A stretch of DNA of 36,692 bases from Candidatus Nitrosocosmicus sp. (GTDB lineage: Archaea; Thermoproteota; Nitrososphaeria; Nitrososphaerales; Nitrososphaeraceae), in assembly GCA_031177355.1 (NCBI GenBank), contig JAPSGR010000018.1, positions 1 through 36,692 of the forward strand, read 5' to 3'. Shown here in pieces: positions 2,558-26,872 of the stretch. Under the pieces are notes generated by a model, which worked only from the letters and a program-made list of their open reading frames with translations, had not been told where the DNA came from and did not search any database. The position numbers and the translations under genes were made by a program. How positions within the stretch are numbered: position 1 is the stretch's first letter; the number at the start of each line of letters is the position of its first letter.

Positions 2558-3127
2558 ATGTCGTTACAAGATAAAAAAGAAACCAATATGAATTATAATT
2601 TTGATCAAACAATTCAGAATAACATTCAGATCTTTAATAGATCAATTGAAGAAATGACACGGTCGCTTAATCAAGTCTTTAATGAATCAAAGAAAAGCGT
2701 TGAAAGAAACATTTCTGAAGCAAACAATCAGATTCCGAGATATACTCAATCTATAAACGAAGTACAAGAACAAGCCGTACAAGCAACAAAAGACATTGCG
2801 GAAAATTATCTCGAATGTCAAAAGCAGGTTATCGATTCATTTCAATCTATCATCTCTCCATATATTGAAAATGCAAATAACCAATTACATAATAATCAAG
2901 AATTGTTTAGAAGACTACCAGAAATATATTCAAAGATTGGCAATAACTACACTGAAAATAGTATTGCAATGAGCAGAATAATTAACAGTATGGCGTTTTC
3001 AAACGTTGAGTTGATGAAGAATGCAATTAACAACACAAAAGAGCAATCAAAACATCTAGCAGAAATTGGAAAAAGAAACGTCATAGTTTACGAAACAATA
3101 GAAAAAGAAAACAGAAAAACCATTTAA
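2558..3127 (+). CDS. Soluble helical/coiled-coil protein, 189 aa
   Basis: The function is not known. The whole chain is rich in Gln, Asn, Glu, Lys and Ser with regularly spaced Ile/Leu/Val, predicting long amphipathic helices. There is no signal peptide, membrane segment or cysteine. The size, all-helical make-up and a central segment CQKQVIDSFQSIISPYIENA (about residues 88-107) resemble phasins, the proteins that coat polyhydroxyalkanoate granules. PHA synthases are known in soil ammonia-oxidising archaea, but no PHA gene is present here, so this is only a suggestion. The ATG at 2558 fits a leaderless transcript from the TATA box at 2529-2538. A T-rich hairpin follows the stop. Alternatives are a generic coiled-coil scaffold or a chemoreceptor-like helical fragment. 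Confidence 0.75.
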   Translation: MSLQDKKETNMNYNFDQTIQNNIQIFNRSIEEMTRSLNQVFNESKKSVERNISEANNQIPRYTQSINEVQEQAVQATKDIAENYLECQKQVIDSFQSIISPYIENANNQLHNNQELFRRLPEIYSKIGNNYTENSIAMSRIINSMAFSNVELMKNAINNTKEQSKHLAEIGKRNVIVYETIEKENRKTI

Positions 3128-3131
3128 AAGG

Positions 3132-3153
3132 TCTAAATTTTTTTAGATTTTTT
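3132..3153 (+). terminator. Short hairpin plus T-run after the 189-aa gene
   Basis: TCTAAA (3132-3137) pairs with TTTAGA (3142-3147) and is followed by a T-run to 3153. It sits directly after the stop codon at 3127. T-runs are the main archaeal termination signal. Confidence 0.5.
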
Positions 3154-3445
3154 AAAAATTTTTGCTTAAAAACCTATTTTTATTTTATCACTACATATTC
3201 AATATCCAATGTTCAATATTCATTTAACAATTGATTTCAAATCATTGGTTGCAAAAATCAAAATCCTATACGTGTTAGATAGCTCTGGATTAATTTAGAT
3301 TTAAAAAGCTATTAGATTCTATAAAAGGAATGATAAAAGAAATAATGTGTCTTTTTTGAGCTGAATATAATTTTAGTACCTTCAAAATAATTCTAAGTTC
3401 AAAATCTGTAACAATAGTTAATATAGTTTGGTAATAACATAATAT
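3154..3445. other. AT-rich intergenic stretch
   Basis: No gene is visible. The last 30 bases hold a likely promoter (TTAATATA at about 3418-3425, about 25 nt before the next ATG). Confidence 0.45.
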
Positions 3446-3859
3446 ATGCAAAGTGTCAGAAAAAAAGCATCAGAAGTTATAGCATCAGTAGCTTTAGCAC
3501 TATTAATTATCTACCTTGTAGACGTTTTAACTACAATGTTGACTGGACATGTAGGCTTTTTGCCATTTTCCTCTCAAGACAGAGGACTTATATTCGGAGC
3601 GTCTTCGATAGCTCTATTTATCGTTTCATTTGCGGTCAGTATAGGTGTTTATTCAAAGGTTACGGCCACACTTCTTATTATAGGCGGAGCCCTTATTGGG
3701 ACTTCAGTTCTGGTATCAACTTATATCACACCCCAGTTTATCAATAGTTTTGAAGGAACCAAGATAGTAACGCCACCTTTGCCTCAGTTTGTAGGTATAA
3801 TAATTCTAGGTTATGCTATAATGGGATCAGGTATATTCAAAGCGGTCAGGAAGAGATAA
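3446..3859 (+). CDS. Four-helix integral membrane protein, 137 aa
   Basis: A small hydrophobic protein of unrecognised function. Four membrane segments are apparent at about residues 10-30, 48-68, 72-92 and 112-131. A short positively charged N-terminus (MQSVRKKASE) and the C-terminal KAVRKR place both ends in the cytoplasm by the positive-inside rule. There is no enzyme signature, His/Asp cluster or cysteine motif. A TATA-like TTAATATA element near 3418-3425 lies about 25 nt before the ATG, consistent with a leaderless monocistronic mRNA. The composition is normal for the window. It is likely a lineage-restricted membrane protein. Confidence 0.75.
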   Translation: MQSVRKKASEVIASVALALLIIYLVDVLTTMLTGHVGFLPFSSQDRGLIFGASSIALFIVSFAVSIGVYSKVTATLLIIGGALIGTSVLVSTYITPQFINSFEGTKIVTPPLPQFVGIIILGYAIMGSGIFKAVRKR

Positions 3860-4547: not shown

Positions 4548-4754
4548 ATGTAGGCAGCGTATAGTATTATTAATATCATTACATAACATACGGTTAGTAT
4601 ACGAATTTTTATTTTAATATTACTTTAACAAACATTATGATTGCTGACTTTGATTCGTTAGTGATTTAGGATTATTATACGCATCTAATTTGTTTCGATT
4701 GCCAAATAGTATGGATATTTTTTTGATAATTGAAAAAAAAGGAGAAAATTTTTA

Positions 4755-5226: not shown

Positions 5227-5718
5227 ATGAAGAATGATATGGAGGGAGACGGCGAAGAGTTAGTAGGCGATAAAGAATGTATCATCAGACCACAGATTAA
5301 AATAATAAACTGCCCCATAAGGACAACATTAGGAGTATTGGGTAAGAAGTGGACAATGCTCATAATAAGAGATATCGGCTTTCTAAAAATTAACAGATTT
5401 AACAGGATACTTGAATCGATTCCGGGTCTCACGCCCAGGGTTTTATCCATGCGACTTCGAGAACTAGAACGCGAGGGAGTAATCAGATGCACACAAATAA
5501 AAAAAGAACAAACGATGGTTATTTGGAGTTTGACGGAAAAAGGAAAAGACATTCTGCCGATACTATTAATGTTAACTGCTTTTGGGTCCAAATGGTATTC
5601 TGAACTTGTATTTGAAGATAAAAAACCAAGAAGTCTGAACGAAGTATTTTCTTTGCCTGAAACTATTGAACAAATAATAGAATATCATAAGAGATTGAAT
5701 ATCGACCGTCCTTTTTGA
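5227..5718 (+). CDS. HxlR-family winged-helix regulator
   Basis: HxlR proteins are DNA-binding regulators, often responding to redox or small electrophiles through a conserved N-terminal cysteine. Here C29-P30-I31 precedes the typical start of the domain, followed by LGVLGKKWTMLIIRDI (35-50; the family signature GxKWxxxIL). The helix-turn-helix spans about 55-85, ending in LTPRVLSMRLRELEREGVI, and the wing about 86-104 (VIWSLTEKGKDI). The domain is complete. An extra tail of about 30 residues may help dimerisation. C29 is the likely sensor residue by analogy only. ATG 5227 and ATG 5239 are both possible starts. It is divergent from the ArnR-like gene. The family call is firm; the signal and targets are unknown. 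Confidence 0.9.
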   Translation: MKNDMEGDGEELVGDKECIIRPQIKIINCPIRTTLGVLGKKWTMLIIRDIGFLKINRFNRILESIPGLTPRVLSMRLRELEREGVIRCTQIKKEQTMVIWSLTEKGKDILPILLMLTAFGSKWYSELVFEDKKPRSLNEVFSLPETIEQIIEYHKRLNIDRPF

Positions 5719-5876: not shown

Positions 5877-6146
5877 ATGAGTAACATAACAAAAACCCAC
5901 AAAGTCGGAATCTTTGCAATGTTTATTGCTGCAGCCTTAATTGGTTCAGTAGTTGCATTTGGCGATAACTATGCATACGCTGGAGGAAAGAAGAAACATA
6001 ACGATGCAGAACAAGAAATTGAACAAGGACAATCAAATGAACAGAATGCACAATGTGTCTCTGGAGAATTTTCATTATTATGTGGAAATAACATAAACTT
6101 GCAGTTACAAGAACAATTAGGTAACTTGGCTTTAGGCCAACAATAA
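5877..6146 (+). CDS. Small secreted Gln/Asn-rich protein A, 89 aa
   Basis: A signal peptide is clear: KTHK, a hydrophobic stretch GIFAMFIAAALIGSVVAF (11-28) and a likely cleavage after AYA near residue 35. The mature part is short, begins with a lysine/histidine patch (GGKKKHND), then is rich in Gln, Glu and Asn. It has two cysteines (C60, C69) that could form one disulphide, in QCVSGEFSLLCGNN. It ends LGNLALGQQ. The same ending and a similar QxxSGExSxxxGNN segment occur in the convergent gene at 6447-6770, and a looser version in the gene at 7322-7600, so this is a local family. The function is unknown. The N-x-A-x3-Q ending fits half of the curlin repeat consensus, so self-assembly on the surface is a possibility only. 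A TTG at 5868 is an alternative start, but the TATA spacing favours ATG. Confidence 0.8.
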   Translation: MSNITKTHKVGIFAMFIAAALIGSVVAFGDNYAYAGGKKKHNDAEQEIEQGQSNEQNAQCVSGEFSLLCGNNINLQLQEQLGNLALGQQ

Positions 6147-6154
6147 TTTTTTTT
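6118..6154 (+). repeat. 37-bp repeat, copy 1 (inverted partner at 6439-6475)
   Basis: This segment covers the last nine codons of secreted protein A, its TAA and eight T of the T-run. It is identical, in opposite orientation, to 6439-6475 at the end of protein B. The flanking base on the coding side already differs. Confidence 0.95.
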
Positions 6155-6438
6155 TGTATTAATAACTATTAATAATACTTAAGACGGTTTTACTATTTTC
6201 TTATGATTTGATTGCAATAGCCTTTATCTTTTTCCTCTAATAAGGGTCATTCCGTATCAAATTTGGCGTATTCAAAATAAAAAATTTTTCGCTTCGTAAA
6301 GTTACATATTATCTTATTTGGCAATAAGAACAATCACAAAATCAAAAGCTCCTTAAATTTTCCAAAAAAAAGTTATGAAACAAGACACAATTGAGATTGA
6401 ATAACGATAAGATTAAACGTGAATTAGATACTTTATTT

Positions 6439-6475
6439 AAAAAAAATTATTGTTGGCCTAAAGCCAAGTTACCTA
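6439..6475 (-). repeat. 37-bp repeat, copy 2 (inverted partner at 6118-6154)
   Basis: This is the exact inverted copy of 6118-6154 and covers the end of secreted protein B, its stop codon and the T-run. The 284 bases between the arms share no obvious similarity. The T-run at the outer end would serve as the terminator of each convergent gene. Confidence 0.95.
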
Positions 6476-6770
6476 TATTATCATTGAAGAACAAACCAAC
6501 ATTATTTCCGGATGCGATAGAATCTTCACCAGAAACTACCTGACTATTTTGAGTAGATGATTGTTCTTGAGATATACTCTGTTCTGCTTCATTTGAATTT
6601 CCGTTTTCGTTATTGTTGTCATCATGATCATGATCATGATCATCATCGTCACAAGAATGTGCAAATGCAAAGAAACTATCAGATGTAATGATAGCAGGCA
6701 CTACAGCTATTATCAGCGTCGCAACGGCAATTGTTACCATTATGGACTTTTTTCTTTTTTCAGATAACAT
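6447..6770 (-). CDS. Small secreted Gln/Asn-rich protein B with Asp/His tract
   Basis: This is a paralogue of the convergent protein A. A basic N-terminus (SEKRKKS), a hydrophobic stretch (IMVTIAVATLIIAVVPAII) and a cleavage region around FAFA mark a signal peptide. The mature protein begins with HSCDDDDHDHDHDD, an acidic-histidine tract that could bind divalent metal ions. A Gln/Ser/Asn-rich segment follows (SISQEQSSTQNSQVVSGEDS, then GNN), and it ends IGNLALGQQ exactly like A. The two cysteines of A's core are absent here (QVV replaces QCV), and the single Cys lies beside the Asp/His tract. ATG 6779 is an alternative start three codons upstream. The TATA-like TAATATATTA at 6796-6805 is 31 nt before ATG 6770 and 22 nt before ATG 6779, so the inner ATG is preferred. 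The function is unknown. Confidence 0.75.
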   Translation of the reverse strand: MLSEKRKKSIMVTIAVATLIIAVVPAIITSDSFFAFAHSCDDDDHDHDHDDNNNENGNSNEAEQSISQEQSSTQNSQVVSGEDSIASGNNVGLFFNDNIGNLALGQQ

Positions 6771-6795
6771 ATGAGTCATTGAAATATTGAAGGAT

Positions 6796-7321: not shown

Positions 7322-7600
7322 CTATTGTCCATACAAATTAAGGCCAGTATTTTCGCTTGATGATATATCTCCAGAATTACATGAATTTATTATCGTAGCA
7401 TTAGGTGGAGCATAACAATAAGAACCTTGAGAGGAGCTTTGGGAGCTAGTTATGTAACTGTCCTGAGGGGCAACGGGATTACTAACATCAAACTCGATAT
7501 AAGCATACAATATACTAGTTGGCACGTTTGAAATAGATACTGCAAGTAGTACAGCGACTAAAGTAAGCACTAATGGAATCTTTAATGAAAATTTATTCAT
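7322..7600 (-). CDS. Small secreted Ser/Gln-rich protein C, 92 aa
   Basis: This is the third small secreted protein of the cluster. A signal peptide (KIPLVLTLVAVLLAVSI, about 7-23) ends near LYAY. The mature part carries SSQSSSQGSYC and INSCNSGD, two cysteines (C62, C74) that could pair, and the ending NTGLNLYGQ. The Gln-x-Ser spacing, the paired cysteines, the SG(D/E)-S-x-N layout and the terminal GQ resemble proteins A and B, although overall identity is low. AT-rich TATA candidates lie at 7613-7628. It lies about 550 bases upstream of protein B on the same strand, too far for a tight operon. The function is unknown; a surface or matrix role is inferred from secretion and composition. Confidence 0.7.
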   Translation of the reverse strand: MNKFSLKIPLVLTLVAVLLAVSISNVPTSILYAYIEFDVSNPVAPQDSYITSSQSSSQGSYCYAPPNATIINSCNSGDISSSENTGLNLYGQ

Positions 7601-9500: not shown

Positions 9501-9911
9501 TTATTTTTATAGAAGTCATCATTCTGCTTTCATTTATCAATTAAAATAATCTATATCCTGATAAGCTCTTTGTTTCCTAATTTATATTATACCGCATTTA
9601 GTAAGATGCGGAATAGCACTAAAACATTACCAGACGATCTTATGAGAAGCAGTAAGACTGACTTCAACTCGCTCTCAGAGCCGAAATAAAAGAAATGATG
9701 CGAAAATGCATATCAAGAAGCCCTGAAAACCTTCTTAAGGCTTTCAACTCAATTAAAAAGAATAACAATCACAAATATTATATTAAGAACAAAAATGGAG
9801 ATAAAGATAGTATAAGGGCCGGTGGTCTAGCCTAGGTATCGGTTAGTATAGAAAAGAGTTTCTATTTTTTTAAACAATATCCTCATGTATTTAAAAAAAT
9901 GAAAAGAATAT
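9501..9911. other. Intergenic stretch with a tRNA-Val 5' remnant
   Basis: No gene is seen. It contains a small hairpin (CCGCAT 9592-9597 with ATGCGG 9606-9611) and the copied upstream region and first 18 bases of tRNA-Val at 9767-9833. Confidence 0.5.
9767..9833 (+). repeat. Duplicated tRNA-Val promoter and 5' end
   Basis: This segment matches 11022-11087 with about five differences. It includes the AT-rich upstream region and the first 18 bases of tRNA-Val (9816-9833, identical in both). After base 9833 the similarity stops, so no anticodon arm or T-arm is present. It is a dead partial copy lying 1254 bases before the intact gene. Confidence 0.85.
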
Positions 9912-11030: not shown

Positions 11031-11040
11031 TTATATATTA
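11031..11040 (+). promoter_or_regulatory. TATA box of tRNA-Val
   Basis: TTATATATTA is centred about 34 nt before the mature 5' end of the tRNA, predicting a short leader. The same element, slightly altered, precedes the truncated copy at 9816. Confidence 0.55.
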
Positions 11041-11069
11041 AGAACAAAAATGAAGACAAAGATAGTATA

Positions 11070-11144
11070 GGGCCGGTGGTCTAGCCTGGTTAAGATACCG
11101 CCTTGACATGGCGGGGGTCGTTGGTTCGAATCCGACTCGGCCCA
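11070..11144 (+). tRNA. tRNA-Val (anticodon GAC)
   Basis: All parts fold. The acceptor GGGCCGG (11070-11076) pairs with TCGGCCC (11137-11143; one G-U) with discriminator A at 11144. The anticodon stem CCGCC/GGCGG holds loop TTGACAT with anticodon GAC, and the T-arm is GTTGG-TTCGAAT-CCGAC. There is no intron and CCA is not encoded. T-rich sequence follows and may terminate transcription. Confidence 0.97.
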
Positions 11145-19633: not shown

Positions 19634-20818
19634 TCAATTATTTCCTTCGTTGTTTTCGATCCCTTCATCGCTGGTATTATTTTCTTGATTATTAGGATCT
19701 GTATTATCATCTAAAGAATCCTCATCCTCTTGTTCATTTTGTTCTTCTCTTTCTGCCTCCTCACATTCAGATAGGTCTCCACCAGACGATCCTGGCTCTT
19801 CACTACAGTTTTCATCGTCAAAAATTGGATTACCATTATCATCCCTCTTTTGTTCGCCACGCTGATTATCATTGTCGTTGTCATTGTCGTTATCATTGTC
19901 GTTGTCATTGTCGTTATCATTGTCGTTGTCATTGTCGTTATCATTGTCGTTATCATCAGATGGTATAAGATTTTGATTGTCAGGATTTACTATACCTAGG
20001 TTGTTACCTTGTAAAGTATTTTGAAATTCACTGCCGCTTATTATTTGAGTGGGGTTTGGATCATCAATAATAAAAGAAAACTTTGGATTTAATGGAGGGC
20101 TCATTGAACTCTGATTGGAATCTATATTCAGAGAATAAAAAGCAGCTTCAGACTTTGTTTTATTATCTGTTATTGTAATATCAAAAGGTGCCATTTGGTT
20201 GTTTGTAAGGCTACCAACATTGAGTCCAAAGCTTTGTGTTCCAATAATACCTAAACTTGAATTATCATAAAATGTTGCAACCAGATTTAAGAATTGTTCA
20301 GGTGACTGGCCTTGGTTTATTATACTACCTGTGATATGAGGATTTCCAACAGTATCTACGAATGAGCTGCTACCATTTAATACAAGAGTAGCTGGTTTTT
20401 CAATTGTTGGTTGAGAAGTAACAGAAAATTCCATAAAATTAAACTTGCCTAATATTTGTTGAGGATTCTGTATTACTATATCAAATGGAGATAGTTCACC
20501 TTGTCTAAGAGTTGATATTGATGAAAATGCAGAGTAATTTCCAATTATAGTATTGTTGTTAGTTGTATCATATAAAATAGCTGTGATTACAATATTTGTT
20601 TGAGGATCGACAGAAGTATTGTTTACCTCACCAATTATATGAAATTTACCAAAGTCATCTGTATAGGTTGATGTGCTTGTTATGTGGATAAGATTAGGCG
20701 AAGCATTTTGTGCAAAGCCTAAATGCACCTCAAACAAGCCACCATGGTCAAAAGTGGTAATGGCTATATATATCAATGATAGTATCACAGTTGATAAAAT
20801 ATTTTTTGACTTTAACAA
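19634..20818 (-). CDS. Secreted FxLYD-domain protein with Asp-Asn repeat
   Basis: An N-terminal hydrophobic stretch (ILSTVILSLIYIAITTF, 7-23) acts as a signal peptide or membrane anchor. Two similar beta domains follow (about 43-130 and 143-220). Each has 'G-x-(V/I)-x-N-x-(S/G)', then an aliphatic strand with 'LYD' or 'FYD' (IVITAILYDTTNNNTIIGNY and FLNLVATFYDNSSLGIIG), then 'L-x-x-x-(E/M)-x-(S/A)-PFDI'. This is the FxLYD pattern of envelope proteins with binding or structural roles. The C-terminal third is very acidic, with an Asp-Asn dipeptide tract and a Glu/Asp/Asn-rich tail that could bind Ca2+ or stay disordered. The start is TTG 20818, with no ATG near the signal peptide. The repeat tract is coded by a 24-bp minisatellite (19870-19957). 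Confidence 0.8.
   Translation of the reverse strand: MLKSKNILSTVILSLIYIAITTFDHGGLFEVHLGFAQNASPNLIHITSTSTYTDDFGKFHIIGEVNNTSVDPQTNIVITAILYDTTNNNTIIGNYSAFSSISTLRQGELSPFDIVIQNPQQILGKFNFMEFSVTSQPTIEKPATLVLNGSSSFVDTVGNPHITGSIINQGQSPEQFLNLVATFYDNSSLGIIGTQSFGLNVGSLTNNQMAPFDITITDNKTKSEAAFYSLNIDSNQSSMSPPLNPKFSFIIDDPNPTQIISGSEFQNTLQGNNLGIVNPDNQNLIPSDDNDNDNDNDNDNDNDNDNDNDNDNDNDNDNQRGEQKRDDNGNPIFDDENCSEEPGSSGGDLSECEEAEREEQNEQEDEDSLDDNTDPNNQENNTSDEGIENNEGNN
19870..19957. repeat. 24-bp minisatellite coding Asp-Asn dipeptides
   Basis: The unit TCATTGTCGTTGTCATTGTC plus GTTA recurs in tandem three times from 19870, with a half copy after it. Units are multiples of three, so gain or loss would change protein length without breaking the frame. 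Confidence 0.9.
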
Positions 20819-25705: not shown

Positions 25706-26872
25706 ATGAAAATGATAGCATTGGTCACAATACTTCTTTTGATCTACTCTATCAGTTACATCCATTCAGAAGCCATATCTCAAACCAATCAGTTTACACT
25801 TACTATTAACCCGGGTGCCTCAGATAGTAATAGTCAAAATCCAATTGAACCTGCCAATATCACTATACCCATTGGATCTACAGTAATTTGGTTAAACAAT
25901 GACTCTGTTTACCATCAAATAGTCTCTGGCACTTCCGATAAAGGCCCTACAAACATATTCTATGGAGACTTTTTTGGTCCAAACGAATCCTATAATGTAA
26001 CATTTGATACAGTAGGAGTATTTGATTATTATGATCCCATATGGACCAATATAAAAGGTCAGATAATAACGATACCTGAAAATAATACAGGTTTGAATGC
26101 TGGCTCATCTAATAATCAATCGGTTCAACTATTAGGTGATCAAAATTTTACACAAGATAACACAAATACTGGATTAGGTACAGGTAACAACTTACATCCT
26201 CAACAACAAACAGGTCTTATTGTGGAGAATCCTATACCTCAACCACAGCCTCAACCACAGCCTCAACCACAGCCTCAACCACAGCCTCAACCACAGCCTC
26301 AACCACAGCCTCAACCACAGCCTCAACCACAGCCTCAACCACAGCCTCAACCACAGCCTCAACCAGTACAAGATCAATCTTTTCAATCCTCACAAGAACA
26401 GTTTCAGATACCACAACATGGTGATATAAACAGTTTTAAAGCAACAGGTACAATAAACTCTTACATAGTAACACCTACTAGCCCATGGAATACCACAGGC
26501 GAATGGACTTTAATCGTTGAAGATGGAGATATAAAGAATTTCATAACAAATATGGCATGGTTTAATGGAACATCAGGTCATACGCACGATTTTTTAAATT
26601 TTGATTCAAGTGGAGATATAGAATTACCAGCGGACAACATCGTAACCATAGATGGTGAAATGGATATTGCATCAAATGGGGTTATAACATGGGATGAAGT
26701 AGAGTCCTCAATTAATATAGGTGGTGGAGGTAGAACGATTACAATAAACGTTGATCATGATGAAACTGATCATCATTTTGCTGGACAGCCTGTAGTTGGG
26801 GCTGTTACTTCGCTAACTCCTTGTTCAGATAGCCCAGGACCAAATATGGAGATTTTGCCAACCTGTGACTAG
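25706..26872 (+). CDS. Secreted cupredoxin-like protein with Pro-Gln linker, copper site lost
   Basis: A signal peptide (MIALVTILLLIYSISYIHS) leads into a plastocyanin-like domain (about 28-124): the strand ITIPIGSTVIWLNNDSVYHQ (52-71) has the family's first His ligand (H70). The second copper loop, normally Y-C-x2-H-x2-M-x-G, reads Y109-D110-P-I-W113-T-N-I116-K-G118, so Cys, His and Met are all replaced with spacing kept. A 10-unit Pro-Gln tract follows, then a C-terminal domain (about 240-388) shared in style with other secreted proteins of these archaea: SFKATGTINSYIVTP, HTHDFLNF, VTIDGEMDIASNG and DHDETDHHFAG. Histidines there could bind metal instead. The first domain is probably a non-copper structural cupredoxin. 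ATG 25706 or 25712 starts it; an ATATATAT box (25671-25678) lies about 31 nt upstream. Confidence 0.82.
   Translation: MKMIALVTILLLIYSISYIHSEAISQTNQFTLTINPGASDSNSQNPIEPANITIPIGSTVIWLNNDSVYHQIVSGTSDKGPTNIFYGDFFGPNESYNVTFDTVGVFDYYDPIWTNIKGQIITIPENNTGLNAGSSNNQSVQLLGDQNFTQDNTNTGLGTGNNLHPQQQTGLIVENPIPQPQPQPQPQPQPQPQPQPQPQPQPQPQPQPQPQPQPQPQPQPVQDQSFQSSQEQFQIPQHGDINSFKATGTINSYIVTPTSPWNTTGEWTLIVEDGDIKNFITNMAWFNGTSGHTHDFLNFDSSGDIELPADNIVTIDGEMDIASNGVITWDEVESSINIGGGGRTITINVDHDETDHHFAGQPVVGAVTSLTPCSDSPGPNMEILPTCD
26237..26365 (+). repeat. 12-bp minisatellite coding (Pro-Gln)n
   Basis: CCTCAACCACAG is repeated ten times without a mismatch (26237-26356), followed by a partial unit. It encodes Pro-Gln-Pro-Gln per unit. 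The open frames seen on other frames and on the opposite strand here are by-products of the repeat. Confidence 0.97.

Follow-up and report, generated by a model that had tools for sequence, protein, structure and literature searches.

The window analyzed in this study (36,692 nt, 33% GC) is contig C44 of the 2.32-Mb draft genome (designated G000) of a strain of Nitrosocosmicus, an ammonia-oxidising archaeon of soil. The assignment to this genus follows from gene B, whose close relatives belong to Candidatus Nitrosocosmicus. It contains two convergently oriented genes, A and B, which encode secreted proteins and whose 3′ ends form a perfect inverted repeat (37/37 nt) separated by a loop of 284 nt. 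The features of this locus are listed below (coordinates of the window).

5227-5718, plus strand: HxlR-type HTH regulator located upstream of A; a syntenic flank, used as anchor for the A side (Pfam HxlR, 1.9e-20)
5877-6146, plus strand: gene A, encoding an 89-aa secreted protein, MSNITK...GNLALGQQ (ORF; ATG at 5877, TAA at 6144-6146)
6118-6154, plus strand: left arm of the repeat, comprising the final 8 codons of A, the stop codon and T8 (direct repeat search)
6155-6438, no strand assigned: spacer of 284 nt; the homologous spacer is inverted in the related genome G009 (alignments)
6439-6475, minus strand: right arm of the repeat, comprising the final 8 codons of B, the stop codon and T8 (direct repeat search)
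6447-6779, minus strand: gene B, encoding a 110-aa secreted protein, MTHMLSEK...GNLALGQQ, with a His/Asp-rich stretch (ORF; TAA at 6447-6449)
7322-7600, minus strand: small secreted protein with the end SENTGLNLYGQ; the syntenic flank on the B side (ORF)

A previous reading of the window, based on the sequence only, had reported that the inverted ends of the convergent genes A and B are identical at the DNA level over 37 nt, and our analysis confirmed this. Each arm is composed of (i) 2 bases of the preceding codon, (ii) 8 whole codons encoding GNLALGQQ, (iii) the stop codon and (iv) a run of eight T residues; the tails of both genes thus read GGTAACTTGGCTTTAGGCCAACAATAA, followed by TAA and T8. 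The number of shared codons given in that reading (nine) has to be corrected to 8 plus 2 bases, while the identical tail, the stop codon and the T8 run stand as described. The repeat was recovered by direct search, and it is absent from the 25 longest repeats returned by a general repeat finder. It is the longest inverted repeat of the window; an origin by chance was ruled out, the next inverted repeat having a length of just 22 nt. A search of the G000 genome, allowing up to 3 mismatches, revealed no third copy of the 37-mer. The identity of the tails also exceeds what protein constraint would require, as had been proposed: all 8 codons are identical in the tail, compared with approximately half of the codons for the same residues elsewhere in A and B.

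Other repeats of different character are present in the window. A 12-nt tandem repeat (CCTCAACCACAG; 26237-26365) encodes the long PQPQ tract of a secreted protein (25706-26872), and a further tandem repeat (19866-19950) encodes the (ND)n tract of a secreted protein located on the minus strand (19634-20818). Two 19-nt direct repeats (TATATTAAGAACAAAAATG and AGGGCCGGTGGTCTAGCCT) occur with near-equal spacing at two places approximately 1255 bp apart (9779-9833 and 11034-11087). This arrangement suggests the duplication of an element, which may be a pair of tRNA-like regions.

The secreted protein family and conservation of the locus

Genes A and B code for short representatives of a secreted, Q/N-rich protein family based on a module of approximately 50 aa (Q.I.Q.Q...QN..VSG......NN...Q.Q...GNNA.AQ). 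They are diverged paralogues, closely alike only in the C-terminal peptide GNLALGQQ, and they share little sequence outside the C-terminal module. When B was used as the query, 52 matches were found in G000 at E ≤10, and up to 69 at E ≤0.01 in single relatives. The loci of the family include 5877-6146 and 6447-6779 of the window, as well as L033, L034, L037 and L041. Members were identified in all 15 genomes of the genus, with a weak match in one of 10 other members of the taxonomic family and none in 16 genomes representing other families of the order.

No Pfam family matched the secreted repeat proteins above threshold, and a literature search revealed no publications describing them in Nitrosocosmicus. 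The structure predicted for a 319-aa member (low confidence, pLDDT 59) contains two long beta strands per repeat, and its comparison with the PDB yielded no significant match. We presume the family motif to be reminiscent of curli repeats. Nitrosocosmicus has no S-layer and carries hair-like surface filaments of approximately 30 nm whose nature is unexplained (PMC11559005). The genus is also devoid of the adhesion proteins found in other ammonia-oxidising archaea (PMC12448741). The secreted repeat family may be regarded as a source of candidate surface-fibre proteins.

The locus composed of A, the spacer and B is syntenic across the genus: HTH regulators and HxlR flank A, and a small gene of the GLNLYGQ type flanks B, with extra genes placed beside the latter in some genomes. 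Orthologues of A, and also paralogues, were found across the genus. Gene A is syntenic in G003, G007, G009 and G013; the HxlR neighbour is kept in the same four genomes and in G014, and the SENTGLNLYGQ-type neighbour is found on the B side in G002, G003, G007, G009 and G013. Orthologues of B, sharing 73-79% identity, are present in G002, G003, G007, G009 and G011. On the TyrRS species tree, the pair-bearing species occupy two clades. In G013, B has been lost, and A and the spacer are retained. In G012 (C185, 6113-6383), A is apparently broken mid-gene (the first match ends at residue 66), and the tail word is intact.

Variation of the gene tails between species

By the terms of the sequence-only reading, a lack of such DNA identity between the paralogues in sister genomes would have counted against it. 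This is not the case, since versions of 36 and 45 nt, with other sequences, were found in related genomes. The arms are identical in three of the four species in which both genes are readable, each with other silent codons and/or post-stop bases, i.e. three genomes have perfect arms of 36-45 nt that differ in sequence. In G003, the tails of A and B agree over 36 nt (GGCAATTTGGCATTAGGCCAACAATAA followed by ACTTTTTTT, with ACT7 after the stop codon TAA), and in G009 they agree over 45 nt from the glycine codon (the coding word GGCAATTTGGCATTAGGCCAACAATAA followed by CCTCTTTTTTTTAACACT, i.e. TAA and CCTCT8AACACT). The fourth pair, that of G007 (GGTAACTTGGCATTAGCC.. and GGTAACTTGGCATTGGGC..), has 2 mismatches among the 27 tail bases and further differences in the flank, which indicates that the homogenising process is intermittent. 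Sharing within pairs extends to silent positions (3 codons) and to the 3′ flank (up to 18 nt). Within this locus, the GGT-AAC state is common to A and B only among G000, G002, G005 and G007 of the TyrRS tree, and G000 alone has GCT in both genes. An unlinked paralogue in G003 (C10) ends with the identical 36 nt, and GGCAATTTGGCATTAGGCCAACAATAA as a coding word is frequent in the genus and in many genes of the family; G003 alone is therefore a weak case.

Comparison of A and B from the same genome at sites encoding the same residue revealed identical codons at 30 of 31 sites in the tail and at 55 of 109 sites in the body (Fisher test, P 5e-7, the sites being partly dependent on one another). 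Parsimony analysis, which covered four complete A/B pairs with few informative sites, required, for the body, 318 steps if the genes were grouped by orthology (A|B) versus 519 if they were paired by genome. The corresponding values were 8 versus 5 for the tail and 19 versus 16 for the 12-nt 3′ flank. Moreover, the pairing of each A with the B of its own genome gave the largest summed match among all 24 pairings. From these results it follows that the bodies track gene orthology and the tails track the genome. As in gene conversion, the within-genome paralogues outmatch the between-genome orthologues over the tail (G007 being a partial exception), and the orthology signal returns outside it, which marks the boundary of the tract.

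The common ends might be of recent shared origin, the tail of B having been copied once from A, or both tails from a third gene, by domain shuffling. Exchange of modules is indeed frequent, as unlinked family members share long exact stretches. However, six genomes, drawn from both clades, have an orthologous B with this tail (in a syntenic position wherever the flanks are readable), and the TyrRS of the B-bearing genomes is only approximately 77-84% identical to that of G000, which argues that the A/B pairing is old. The tails have, in addition, subsequently changed together in separate lineages. We therefore consider a recent shared origin very unlikely.

It is similarly improbable that the tail is a functional 3′ element of the RNA or DNA (a terminator hairpin with a T-run, or a signal for mRNA processing or pairing) that has been conserved independently in both genes. 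The tail does contain a stem of 5 bp (TTGGC/GCCAA) that precedes T8, and the word GGCAATTTGGCATTAGGCCAACAATAA recurs in many genes of the family. Nevertheless, this stem is no more stable than expected by chance, the local hairpin folding energy being no better than that of shuffled sequence (z -0.32, -0.32 and -0.51); most family genes of G000, which end in GNNALAQQ or similar, lack it; T-runs follow nearly all genes of the family; and a search of Rfam gave no match for the region of the tail and spacer. The role in termination suggested by the sequence-only reading was thus not upheld. Silent sites of the tail are the same between species at 5/8 to 8/8, versus 0.5-0.9 in the body, and this similar divergence speaks against simple purifying selection at the DNA level. 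The differences between tails appear jointly in the two genes of a genome, a pattern that is not predicted by selection for a single optimum. The suggested pairing between the two mRNAs also has to be abandoned, since both carry the same sense tail rather than complementary ones and, barring read-through transcription, are unable to pair via the tail.

Inversion of the spacer in G009

In the draft genome G009, whose spacer (approximately 430 bp) is split over two contigs, this segment is inverted relative to those of G011, G012 and G013. On the A side, the G009 spacer sequence matches the B-side sequence of G011 (69% over 185 nt); on the B side, it matches the A-side sequences of G012 and G013. 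Every inverted score, computed without the 18 arm-proximal bases, was beaten by 0 of 1000 shuffles, and the same-orientation controls were weak or not significant. The orientation is concordant among G011, G012 and G013, and the spacers of G000, G002, G003 and G007 are too diverged to be oriented (best z for G000, 3.8). The order of the genes at the locus is conserved, which shows that the spacer alone has been flipped. Of the earlier proposal of a recombination site that inverts or swaps the genes, the inversion is thus borne out for the spacer of G009, and no swap of the genes was seen.

Genes A and B of G009 lie on two contigs, each of which ends within the spacer; the neighbouring genes on these contigs are syntenic with those on either side of the locus. 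Misassembly is an unlikely source of the inversion, as it would need an exchange on both sides. The B-side arm of G009 bears the A-type flank CCTCT8AACACT, also found in A of the sister genome G014. This suggests, from the sequence of the flank, that the tail of A may have been copied onto B, i.e. that the direction of copying was from A to B.

There is little likelihood that the spacer flips often and is mixed within populations, each gene alternating between two 3′ untranslated regions. The contigs of four draft genomes (G002, G009, G011 and G014) end in or near the spacer, which is compatible with mixed orientation and is not evidence of it. Such frequent flipping, if true, would constitute a recombination-driven 3′ UTR switch in an archaeon. 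Although the segment bounded by the inverted arms occurs in both orientations between species, a programmed, site-specific inversion, with the arms as recombinase sites and the flip of the spacer as a regulated switch, is extremely unlikely: a Pfam search of the adjacent proteins revealed no recombinase domain; the arms vary in sequence between species, sit within coding ends, are decaying in G007 and do not contain a conserved core site; and the spacer, whose sequence is not conserved, consists only of 3′ flanks with no identified RNA feature, its inversion altering neither protein.

Probable exchange between the arms

The A/B loci are syntenic, their tails are identical within genomes and co-vary between them, and in one of them the spacer is inverted. 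We conclude that the tails very probably represent partial concerted evolution, in which recombination between the arms homogenises the tails and sometimes inverts the spacer. Gene conversion, one of the explanations originally put forward, agrees well with the co-variation of the tails in sister genomes and with an identity that spans both silent and 3′ flank sites.

The molecular route was probably a template switch or homologous recombination. The tail-to-tail ends of the paralogues, placed a few hundred bases apart, would create a short inverted repeat, and protein constraint on GNLALGQQ would keep its arms similar enough for recombination. An exchange between the arms, most simply a template switch during replication, or else short-homology recombination, would then overwrite one arm with the other. 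This copying would extend to silent positions and to the first part of the 3′ flank, leaving arms that are near-identical within a genome and change between species. An alternative resolution of the same exchange would invert the spacer, as in the lineage of G009. Short-homology recombination, whether crossover or non-crossover, would give the same pattern as template switching. The exchange is presumably selectively neutral, because neither protein is altered.

Template switching between short inverted repeats is known to homogenise their arms and invert their spacers, e.g. in coding genes of yeast, where arms of 7-16 bp were described in a study confined to spacers of 70 bp or less (PMC8604942), which also cites earlier work on bacteria and phages. 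The two systems have in common that a near-perfect repeat is perfected in a lineage, that silent or multi-base changes cross between the arms, and that the spacer is flipped with the arms intact. In contrast to yeast, the repeat described here is found in an archaeon, has arms of 36-45 nt and a spacer of about 270-430 bp, and its arms are the tails of two paralogous genes, including the 3′ flank, recurring across a genus. Prokaryotic paralogues that evolve in concert through recurrent gene conversion have been reported, namely mtrA (PMC4632066) and those of a survey of 26 genes (PMC6053082). In those cases, as in ours, the process is recurrent, occurs in archaea, and renders within-genome paralogues closer than between-genome orthologues. 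Here, however, homogenisation is limited to the last approximately 27 coding nt and the first part of the 3′ flank, the remainder of A and B evolving separately; the layout is inverted, and the genes are not those of methanogens or of complex subunits. Ectopic recombination between the terminal inverted repeats of insertion sequences, as described in another report (PMC3004938), also flips the enclosed segment, but the repeats at our locus are gene tails and no mobile element is involved.

Exchange is not confined to the A/B locus. Unlinked family members of G000 have identical stretches as long as 60 nt in common (C31/C60), and the length of the shared stretch was for this reason dropped as sole proof. 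Tandem A-type genes at loci L204 (G005) and L205 (G007) are identical in their 5′ parts (over 146 and 120 nt, respectively) and differ in their 3′ parts, which is mosaic gene conversion. Being homogenised at the 5′ part rather than at the tail, these pairs were unsuitable as a control for tail identity. The long exact stretches and the tandem 5′ identity indicate that sequence exchange is general in the family. A second convergent family pair, located on contig C31 of G000 (L037), has a 43-nt perfect inverted repeat (2589-2631 and 4588-4630), which encloses a segment of approximately 2 kb with an ORF of 219 aa (3076-3735, minus strand). This pair, as analysed in G000, is in line with the same exchange process. 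No further tight convergent pairs of the family were seen in the coordinate lists of G003, G005, G007 and G009.

The DNA process recorded in the A/B tails is already known; they are a well-preserved natural instance of it, and their scale and setting are novel to some extent. They provide, within one archaeal genus, a compact record of arm copying and spacer inversion between repeats of 36-45 nt placed several hundred bases apart. They also caution that identical gene tails are no proof of functional 3′ elements, and point to a large family of secreted repeat proteins, so far undescribed and mainly confined to Nitrosocosmicus.
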